Positions 20,469-23,087 of a stretch of DNA of 34,843 nucleotides are shown piece by piece. Position numbers and translations under genes: made by a program. How positions within the stretch are numbered: the stretch's first letter is position 1; each line of letters opens with the position of its first letter. The DNA is from a virus, in the IMG/VR virus record IMGVR_UViG_3300031952_000075, positions 1 to 34,843 of that record. One strand, given 5' to 3'. The notes under the pieces are model-generated. The model was not told where the DNA came from. It was given only the letters and a program-made list of their open reading frames with translations, and searched no databases.

Positions 20469-20887
20469 TGTCCCCTGTTCCGCCCCGCCGGCCTTCCGCG
20501 GATTTTCGCCTCGTAACGCAGCGAGATCGTGTCGCCGCCCCCCAACAAGAAGCCCACGTCAGGCCGGTCTTCGCTCTGGAGTGGATGAATACAGAGATGC
20601 TGCCAGCGCACCGTGAATCCGTACTTGCTGGCCTGGAAGAAGAAAACGAAACGGGCGTCGTAGGGGGCATACTGCCAGCCCAGCGTGTCGGCAAAGAATA
20701 TCTGAGCCGATCCGCCCACCTGCAGGAAATCGAACAGCTCCCCGGCGGCCTCCAGCGTGACGTAGGGAGATTCGATCTGGTAGCCGGCCTGCAGGCTTCC
20801 GCCGTCCCAGCCGGGCGCCGTGAACATCAATTCGCTCTGCGCGTGAAAGCCCGCCTCCAGGGCGAAGATGAAAGCCAGCCAGCTCAT
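20465..20887 (-). CDS. Possible envelope-associated beta-rich protein (140 aa)
   Basis: The protein starts MSWLAFIFALEAGFHAQSEL, a short hydrophobic N-terminus without the basic residues of a classical signal peptide. Most of the rest alternates polar and hydrophobic/aromatic residues (SPYVTLEAAGELFDFLQVGG, AQIFFADTLGWQYAPYDARF, VFFFQASKYGFTVRWQH), as in small outer-membrane barrels or lipocalin-like beta proteins. Its ATG overlaps the ParB-like stop. The first 23 residues recur in a 31-residue ORF at 34402-34497. A role in superinfection exclusion is conceivable but unproven. Confidence 0.75.
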   Translation of the reverse strand: MSWLAFIFALEAGFHAQSELMFTAPGWDGGSLQAGYQIESPYVTLEAAGELFDFLQVGGSAQIFFADTLGWQYAPYDARFVFFFQASKYGFTVRWQHLCIHPLQSEDRPDVGFLLGGGDTISLRYEAKIRGRPAGRNRGQ

Positions 20888-22503
20888 GGGGAGGCCTCCG
20901 CCTTCTTTGCCTGCGGCTTCTTCGCCGGCGCCCTCTTCTTGGCCTTCGGCTTGCCCGCCTTCTTGGCGCGCTCCTCCCTCGCCTTGGCTTTCTCGGTGAA
21001 CTCCTTCCGGACCTGCGCCGCGATCGCGTCGATGTCCAGCTTGTAGATCGCGGCTACCTCCTTCATCCGCCGACATTCGGTGCCGTGCCAGCCAGGCCCG
21101 ATCAGGTCCTGGGCCAGGGTGACGGTCAGCATGAACTGGAGTAGCTCGTCGCTTTCGTACTTGGCGATCCGTGTCCTGCCCATGCGCTCCCAGGGGTAGC
21201 CGTATTCCCCCGACTGCCTGGGCAATTCCTTCCAGCCCATCGCCTGGCAGTAGGCCCCTTGAATATCGCTCAGGGTCCGCTGCCATAAGTTCTGCGCAAT
21301 CATGCGCAGCAGCTCGGCCGACATCGCCTTGAATACCTTCTTGGTCTCGAGCACCCGGATCACCGCGTCCCAGGTCCTCTCCCGGATGGCCACCTGGATC
21401 TTCGCCTCGAGGAGTTGTTTCTTGCGGGCGGTCTTCTCCGCGGCGGTGGGCTCGGAGCGGCCATAGCGGTTTTGCTTGCGCTCCCGGCCGTAGGTCAGCC
21501 GGCCCGGGTTGTCGCCGGCGACTACCAGCGCCGGCACCGCGTCCTCGTCGCTCTTCTTGCATTCCTCCCAGGCGGAGGATTCTTTTACGCCGGCTTTCTT
21601 TAGCCGCTGTTGCTCCTTCCAGTCCAGGCCATAAGCTCCCCGGTCCAGGACCTCGAGGTGCTTCTGGCCCTTGAGCTCCTGCCGGCGCCGCTGCACCAGG
21701 GCCTCCAGCTTGCCGTGGAAGCAGGGCGGGTCTGTGCAGTAGTCCTTCTTGCCGCCGTTGCAGACGTCTGCAAAAAGCGCCGGCTGGTAGCCGGTGCGCT
21801 TCGGGCAGGTGGTGCAGGGCCCGGCCTTCGGGTCCAGCTCCGCGTCGTCTCTCTTGAAGGCTGCCCTGCTCAGCTCCAGCAGGATGTGCTGGCGGATGTA
21901 GACGTCGATCTCGCGCACCGAGATCTCCTCGCCCCGCTGGAACAGGAAGCAGCCGAGGATCTCCTTCTGCTGGGCCGGTTGCAGGCGGGCGATCAGGATG
22001 GCGTGGCCAGCCTGGATCTTGCCTTCCTCGAGCTGCTTCTTCGCGGGCGGGATCAAGTCCTGCAGCTTGAGGCGTTGGTAAATGTAACTCGGGCTGCGGC
22101 CTACCTCCTTCGCCAGGAGTTCCACATCGTAGTCGCCTTTGGCGATCAAGCGGGCGTAGCCCTCCGCCTCGTCCAGGGGATGGATGTCCTCGCGTTGCAG
22201 ATTTTCGATGGTCGCGATCTTCATCAGCGTGGCGTCATCGATCTCGCGCACCACGCAGGGAAGGGTGGCCAGGCCGGCCAGGCGGGCGGCCTTCCAGCGG
22301 CGCTCGCCGGCGACCAGCTCGTTGGGCTCATCGGCGTGGGGGTTGACGGGGTTCAGTCGCACCAGCGCGGGATGAAGGACGCCGACTATCCTGATTGATT
22401 CGGCCAGCTCCTGCAGCTTGGCCTGGTTGAATCCGCCGTGCTTCCGGTTCCATGGGTTGGGCCGGATCTGCCCCAGGGGGATCTGCTCCACTTTCTCGTT
22501 CAT
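20884..22503 (-). CDS. ParB/RepB/Spo0J-like protein (539 aa)
   Basis: The ParB N-terminal domain is clear: LGQIRPNPWNRK, then VAGERRWKAARLAG (GERR at 66-69, the nucleotide-binding arginine motif) and ENLQREDIHPLDEAEGYARL from 100. An HTH follows at about 126-146 (LLAKEVGRSPSYIYQRLKL). Residues about 225-265 hold a Cys cluster (CTTCPKRTG, then CNGGKKDYCTDPPCF) seen in several mobile-element ParB homologues. The tail is Lys/Ala-rich and histone-like. It abuts the replication initiator, so it may act at or near the origin. True partition is doubtful because an integrase is present. Confidence 0.88.
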   Translation of the reverse strand: MNEKVEQIPLGQIRPNPWNRKHGGFNQAKLQELAESIRIVGVLHPALVRLNPVNPHADEPNELVAGERRWKAARLAGLATLPCVVREIDDATLMKIATIENLQREDIHPLDEAEGYARLIAKGDYDVELLAKEVGRSPSYIYQRLKLQDLIPPAKKQLEEGKIQAGHAILIARLQPAQQKEILGCFLFQRGEEISVREIDVYIRQHILLELSRAAFKRDDAELDPKAGPCTTCPKRTGYQPALFADVCNGGKKDYCTDPPCFHGKLEALVQRRRQELKGQKHLEVLDRGAYGLDWKEQQRLKKAGVKESSAWEECKKSDEDAVPALVVAGDNPGRLTYGRERKQNRYGRSEPTAAEKTARKKQLLEAKIQVAIRERTWDAVIRVLETKKVFKAMSAELLRMIAQNLWQRTLSDIQGAYCQAMGWKELPRQSGEYGYPWERMGRTRIAKYESDELLQFMLTVTLAQDLIGPGWHGTECRRMKEVAAIYKLDIDAIAAQVRKEFTEKAKAREERAKKAGKPKAKKRAPAKKPQAKKAEASP

Positions 22504-23087
22504 GCTTTCTTCTCCTCTCTCGCTTCGATTTGGGCGACGATGGCGTCCCCTCCGGGTAGCGCCCGAAGTACGGAACGCAGGCCGTGAATCGCGGCCTGCC
22601 TGTCTCCTCTGCTCTCTTGGCCGGGGGAGGGAGACGCAATCTCTTTAAGTAATTCTGAAGATGTATCTCGTTCGGGTTCCGACGCGGAACTACCCCAGTT
22701 CCGACGCGGAACTACCCCAGTTCCGACGCGGAACTGGTTACCTGGGAGACCAGTTCCACTGCGGAACTGGTTGTGGATAACTTTTTCTTCCTCCGGGCCT
22801 ACAGTGTAGAGGTTCACCAGGCCTGAGCGGCGCTCCAGCGTCAGGTAGTGCAGGGCCTTCAGGTCGATGATCCCCTTGGTGATCGCCTGACGGCGAATCT
22901 TCAACCGGCGCTGCATGAGGTTGATGCTTGGGAAGGCCACGCCCGTATTGTAGTTGGCATGCCGGCAGAGGATCACGTACACCAGCAGGGCGGTGGCGGT
23001 GACTCGCTCGTCGTCGATGACCACGTGGTCGACCGCGGCGAAGGGCAGACCGCGGCGCTTGAGGATGGCTTCGGTCTTCGCCTTCAT
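22500..23087 (-). CDS. Replication initiator, winged-helix type (195 aa)
   Basis: From ATG 23087 (overlapping the upstream stop) the protein has a helix-turn-helix N-terminal domain: VTATALLVYVILCRHANYNT, FPSINLMQRRLKIRRQAITK, then LHYLTLERRSGLVNLYTV. This is the plasmid/phage initiator type seen in lambda O-like proteins. The middle of the gene (22675-22780) carries iterons and a DnaA box, so the protein probably binds its own coding sequence and recruits the host helicase. The C-terminal part is short, charged and unlike the N-terminal domain. Confidence 0.8.
   Translation of the reverse strand: MKAKTEAILKRRGLPFAAVDHVVIDDERVTATALLVYVILCRHANYNTGVAFPSINLMQRRLKIRRQAITKGIIDLKALHYLTLERRSGLVNLYTVGPEEEKVIHNQFRSGTGLPGNQFRVGTGVVPRRNWGSSASEPERDTSSELLKEIASPSPGQESRGDRQAAIHGLRSVLRALPGGDAIVAQIEAREEKKA
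22640..22790. other. Replication origin: four dyad iterons, DnaA box, AT-rich flank
   Basis: Four copies of a dyad AGTTCC-N5-GGAACT lie at 22675-22691, 22697-22713, 22719-22735 and 22752-22768 (the first begins with G, the fourth has a variant centre). Spacing is 22, 22 and 33 bases, i.e. two, two and three helical turns. A perfect DnaA box (TTATCCACA on the minus strand) is at 22772-22780, and AT-rich patches flank the array (22641-22665 and 22778-22789). The layout matches the lambda origin inside gene O. Confidence 0.85.

Follow-up and report, generated by a model that had tools for sequence, protein, structure and literature searches.

A candidate replication origin formed by dyad iterons within a phage HTH_36-type initiator gene

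Why does a coding sequence of a phage contain four closely spaced inverted repeats, and could the same DNA act as an origin of replication? The window, by which we mean the whole stretch of DNA analysed, is a 34.8-kb virus record, and the repeats are four GTTCC-N5-GGAAC dyads at 22675-22768 inside a minus-strand gene (Table 1). The phage is probably temperate because an integrase gene is present. The original prediction described the locus as a lambda-like origin within the initiator gene, and this main reading was supported by the family and modelled fold of the protein, by the location of the array within a linker predicted to be disordered, by the AT-rich patch beside the array, and by a survey of the family. 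Judging from these sequence analyses, we consider 22640-22780 to be a putative theta-type origin inside its own initiator gene, with a probability of roughly 0.85; winged-helix dimers would bind the dyads and the AT-rich patch would melt.

Table 1 Features of the candidate origin and the neighbouring genes in the window.
Feature	Position	Strand	Evidence or remark
Replication initiator gene, 195 aa	22500-23087	-	PF13730 HTH_36, phrog_270, AlphaFold2 model
ParB-like gene	20884-22503	-	PF02195, PF17762; 4-base overlap with the end of the initiator gene
Iteron dyad, 1st in gene order	22752-22768	-	AGTTCC-N5-GGAACT
Iteron dyad, 2nd in gene order	22719-22735	-	AGTTCC-N5-GGAACT
Iteron dyad, 3rd in gene order	22697-22713	-	AGTTCC-N5-GGAACT
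Iteron dyad, 4th in gene order	22675-22691	-	GGTTCC on the + strand (outer A to G)
DnaA box TTATCCACA	22772-22780	-	Sole TTATNCACA in the window
AT-rich patch, candidate DNA unwinding element	22637-22672		70-73% AT, gene-downstream side of the array

The initiator gene starts with ATG, and a GGAGGA site is located immediately upstream. A Pfam search with its product returned HTH_36 alone (E = 1.9e-7; 31.2 bits against the Pfam cut-off of 25), without the lambda-O domain (Phage_rep_O). The PHROG matches were phrog_270, annotated as replication initiation (E = 5.8e-6), and phrog_8102 (E = 2.3e-4), together with a weak match to the family "replication initiation O-like" (E = 0.008). The initiator had been described as unrelated to lambda O; this held at the level of Pfam domains, whereas the O-like PHROG match speaks weakly against it.

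An AlphaFold2 model was built on an alignment of the window initiator with ten array-carrying viral genes. In the model, residues ~31-96 form a winged helix and residues 160-194 a C-terminal helical hairpin, and a linker (~97-158) connects the two. The pLDDT was 92-95 in the core of the winged helix-turn-helix (wHTH) and below 50 across most of the linker 97-158, and the winged-helix elements (helices 31-43, 55-62, and 66-78, and strands 82-87 and 91-96) were all predicted with high pLDDT. When the model was compared with the PDB by Foldseek, wHTH proteins (repressors) ranked at the top, the best of them just above an E-value of 0.001 and none passing it. Against viral models, many phage HTH proteins were matched, including replisome organizers and the putative replication protein O of phage Min27. 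Taken together, the domain, the PHROG families, and the modelled winged-helix fold indicate that the product is an HTH_36-type phage replication initiator.

Searches of phage records and viral contigs gave no sequence homologue of the initiator, and a search started from L032, the array-carrying initiator nearest to it, returned only L032 itself. Relatives sought through the ParB, ATPase, and portal proteins were set aside, being either near-identical copies that end short of the array (L007, L347, and L348) or distant phages without dyads. Among the subset of ORFs scanned with Pfam and PHROGs, no helicase or helicase loader was recognised; the gene downstream of the initiator is ParB-like, and the upstream ORFs gave no loader match.

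The dyads, each 17 bp long, are spaced 22, 22, and 33 bp apart. Their number and spacing agreed with the original prediction, which had given all four as AGTTCC-N5-GGAACT; this full form is present in three of them, and the dyad at 22675-22691 differs by one mismatch, with the core GTTCC-N5-GGAAC intact as in the others. No array of three or more clustered dyads with any other arm was found in the whole window, and in 100 first-order Markov simulations the clustered N5 copies for any arm reached two at most, as against the four observed. The four dyads had further been expected to lie on one face of the DNA. This is true only roughly because, with a helical repeat of 10.5 bp, steps in multiples of 11 bp build up offsets of 34, 69, and 120 degrees; strict phasing is unsupported. 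Across the arrays of the survey described below, helical periodicity likewise gave no sharp period (9-13 bp).

The array begins 73 nt after the HTH_36 match, ~320 bp into the gene, and corresponds to codons 107-138. As this range is within the linker 97-158, the iterons encode the part of the protein predicted to be disordered. In gene order, the dyads are translated as NQFRSGTG, NQFRVGTG, VVPRRNWG, and GSSASEPE. The three translations reported earlier thus exist, but there are four, the first two sharing one frame because their 33-bp spacing is a multiple of three. The frame changes had been taken as a sign of selection on DNA rather than protein; with the copies numbered upwards from 22675, a recent tandem duplication of copies 1-3, which are near-identical 22-bp units, could by itself account for them. 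Copy 4, at 22752-22768, is the better sign of selection at the DNA level, having retained both arms while three of its five spacer bases changed.

Such a duplication raises the question of whether the whole array is a neutral expansion in a disordered linker, without any function as DNA. The near-identity of copies 1-3 and the predicted disorder are what this explanation would lead one to expect, but every copy is an inverted repeat, the arms of copy 4 were kept while its spacer diverged, and N5 arrays with other arms recur at the equivalent position in HTH_36 genes that are only distantly related. We regard it as hardly credible, and as the least probable of the alternatives considered here.

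On one side of the array, a perfect DnaA box had been predicted, and it is indeed present 3 bp away; TTATNCACA occurs once in the window against an expectation of ~0.2. AT-rich patches had been proposed on both flanks, of which one was confirmed. The region 22640-22672 is 70% AT and ranks in the top 0.4% of 30-bp windows, the average of the window being 38%, whereas the other flank (22769-22800) has just 50% AT. GC skew showed no turn at the dyad array, and Rfam and tRNA scans of the window gave no matches.

These surroundings also bear on the possibility that the dyads are operators of a transcription regulator, through which the operon of the initiator and ParB-like genes would be autoregulated. 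In several other phages, pairs of GTTCC-N5-GGAAC are located upstream of HTH_3 repressor genes. The present array, however, lies deep inside the gene, a promoter and terminator scan detected no sigma-70-like promoter or terminator nearby, and four copies with an AT-rich patch suit an origin better. An operator function is hence highly improbable as the primary role, and binding of the initiator to the dyads could have a regulatory side effect.

To avoid choosing loci by the motif, a survey was conducted with loci selected by the HTH_36 protein match alone, taken from four phyla, namely those of Hyphomicrobium, Bryobacterales, Cohnella, and Streptomyces genomes. PF13730 was used because a whole-genome search with phrog_270 yielded mostly partial matches. 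An array was defined as at least two dyads with the same exact 5-bp arm, and the resulting counts are lower bounds that miss imperfect iterons such as those of lambda or P22. Among 163 loci with full flanks, drawn from the best-scoring HTH_36 matches and representative only of these, 59 had an array within 500 bp 3' of the HTH. Arrays were fewer in the 500 bp upstream of the HTH (7), in the following 500 bp on the downstream side (7), and in the region beyond the upstream flank (4). For arrays of at least three copies, the corresponding numbers were 26, 2, 1, and 1, and N5 was the commonest spacer (16 of the 26). Nearly all of the arrays (56/59) were entirely within the ORF. Clustering at 35% identity chained nearly all loci, and 50-70% was used instead; at 60% identity, arrays were present in 42 of 114 clusters. 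The arms varied by family (GTGCA, GTGAC, GTGAA, GGTTC, GTTAA, and others).

These results suggest that the intragenic array design is common in the HTH_36 family. Multi-frame iterons had been regarded as unusual; this view was not borne out, as the copies are in more than one reading frame in 21 of the 59 arrays and those of lambda are in all three frames. A DnaA box was near the array in only 2 of the 59 (0.26 expected), and the box in the window is therefore a local feature rather than a mark of the class. On balance, we lean towards the view that carrying one's own origin is a trait of the HTH_36 initiator family, with same-arm dyad arrays present in the linker that follows the wHTH in at least one third of the surveyed genes, N5 being the commonest spacer and many arrays extending over several frames. 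An earlier general statement of this pattern may exist in the literature.

The same association was approached from the DNA pattern. When viral contigs were scanned for pairs of GTTCC-N5-GGAAC within 30 bp of each other, 54 loci were obtained, ten of which were inside wHTH genes, directly behind the HTH. The arrays of these ten genes use all three frames and are read as FQxGT, VPxxN, or CSxxEH types. Although the ten proteins are only 11-26% identical to the window initiator, phrog_270 "replication initiation protein" was matched by 9 of the 11 genes including that of the window (8/10 without it), and HTH_36 by 8 of the 11. The remaining loci included operators ahead of HTH_3 repressors and unrelated repeats. 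Two other scans were discarded: the exact 17-mer gave six single matches in viral contigs, approximately at chance level, and a three-dyad scan of bacterial genomes gave mostly unrelated repeats (Treponema, Streptomyces, and Sporosarcina). GTTCC-N5-GGAAC alone is unspecific, because arrays were also found in unrelated contexts.

Several of these contexts were noted in their own right. In L017, L038, L051, L057, L067, and similar loci, two dyads ~35 bp apart lie directly ahead of small HTH_3-like repressor genes or at their 5' ends and are likely autoregulatory operators with the same GTTCC arms. Streptomyces loci (L098, L103, L118, L126, and ~15 more) contain three dyads at 24 + 24 bp; in four of these loci the array is directly behind a ParB_N-like coding segment, and these arrays are possibly intragenic sites of a ParB-like protein. 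Treponema MAGs (L075, L094, L128, and L136) have long arrays in which GTTCC-N5-GGAAC units follow one another every 24 bp; these are translated in part as VPTRNR and FQLGTG repeats. In Pasteurellaceae (L070, L084, L110, L121, and L130), intragenic dyads mostly 42 bp apart encode SSNMELS-type repeats, which look like another initiator family with in-frame iterons.

The Streptomyces arrangement is relevant to another explanation, in which the dyads of the window are parS centromere-like sites of the downstream ParB-like protein, used for partition or regulation and not as an origin. The gene of this protein overlaps the initiator gene and starts ~170 bp from the array, and four of the Streptomyces arrays come right after a ParB_N-like segment. 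However, a ParB encoded in another phage (L008, 5001-6557), which is 50% identical to the ParB-like protein of the window, has a near-identical recognition-helix region (SPSYIYQRLKL vs SASYVYQRLKL), yet L008 is without GTTCC-N5-GGAAC; this comparison concerns one relative, whose 42-kb record is possibly a fragment. When the analysed sequence of the viral loci with GTTCC arrays in their genes was searched with the window ParB, a ParB was found only in L031, outside the ten initiator genes. Moreover, no ParA was recognised among the subset of ORFs scanned with Pfam and PHROGs, and the array is at the class-typical place behind the HTH_36 domain. Partition sites are accordingly very unlikely, even if they are the least improbable of the alternatives.

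No canonical chromosomal-type parS motif for the ParB was found. A palindrome with a parS-like CACGTG core, GACCACGTGGTC, is located at 23019-23030 in the 5' part of the initiator gene. ParB-like proteins are present in the replication modules of both the window and L008, whose initiators are different; in L008 a DnaC-like ATPase gene adjoins the initiator gene, and the window is without it.

Returning to the origin reading, we infer binding, melting, helicase recruitment, and origin firing from the computed array, protein family, predicted fold, AT-rich patch, and association of arrays with the family. Dimers of the winged-helix domain would bind the four dyads, and the bound complex would melt the AT-rich patch, perhaps with the help of host DnaA at the neighbouring box. 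A helicase or primase, encoded by the host or the phage, might then be brought in through the C-terminal helices. The gene would tolerate the array because nothing but the predicted disordered linker, which joins the DNA-binding part to the C-terminal part, is encoded there.

For this phage, the analysis provides a specific candidate origin together with its initiator. More broadly, the single cases of lambda, SPP1, and pSK41 turn into a searchable rule: find an HTH_36 gene and seek N5 dyads behind the HTH. The survey suggests that frame-shifted iterons are common in the HTH_36 class because the encoded linker is disordered. If the proposed binding is true, a single gene could suffice to read off both the origin and the initiator specificity in very many phages, prophages, and related elements.

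Lambda O and its origin (NC_001416) were analysed in the same way as the window. Of the four lambda iterons, iteron 1, TCCCTC-AAAAC-GAGGGA, is an exact 6-N5-6 dyad and the remainder are imperfect. Spacings of 20, 24, and 23 bp separate successive iterons, which occupy frames 0, 2, 2, and 1; a 78% AT patch comes after them. In lambda (PMC7466680, NC_001416) and its Stx-phage relatives, as in the window, the iterons are intragenic and come after the DNA-binding part. Lambda and the window also have in common four inverted-repeat copies in several frames with an AT-rich patch after them in the gene sense. In contrast to lambda, the window has another arm sequence, a shorter C-terminal part, and a DnaA box beside the array, and its next gene is ParB-like whereas that of lambda encodes the helicase loader P. 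With neither Phage_rep_O nor an adjoining P- or DnaC-type loader, the window would be placed outside the lambda O family proper.

SPP1 gp38 binds repeats within its own gene, and oriL has an AT-rich unwinding element (PMC6316719). Repeats inside the initiator gene and an AT-rich element are likewise features of the window. SPP1 also has a dedicated loader, gp39, a helicase, gp40, and a second origin elsewhere (PMC6316719), whereas no gp39- or gp40-like protein was found among the window ORFs scanned. Rep of pSK41, a RepA_N plasmid, binds four Rep boxes situated centrally in its own gene; this ori DNA encodes a linker that is dispensable at the protein level (PMC5703833). The window initiator resembles this Rep in having an N-terminal DNA-binding domain, a central linker coinciding with the candidate ori DNA, and a separate C-terminal domain; it differs in that pSK41 Rep is a plasmid protein of the RepA_N family, whose C-terminal DnaD-like domain was not detected in the window initiator. 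By the position of the array and the AT-rich element next to the iterons, a candidate for unwinding, the window appears to belong to the intragenic-origin type represented by lambda O, SPP1 gp38, and pSK41 Rep.

Further close parallels are other HTH_36 initiators of phages and prophages (L166-L345), which have the same domain and array position with N5 as the commonest spacer, mostly lack an adjacent DnaA box, and carry different arms (GTGCA, GTGAC, GGTTC, and others); the GTTCC arms are common to the window and the viral loci L016, L022, L026, L032, L035, and L060. Against this background, the sequence gives good support for a lambda-like origin in the initiator gene of the window; as such it is an ordinary case, one more instance of a design already known.
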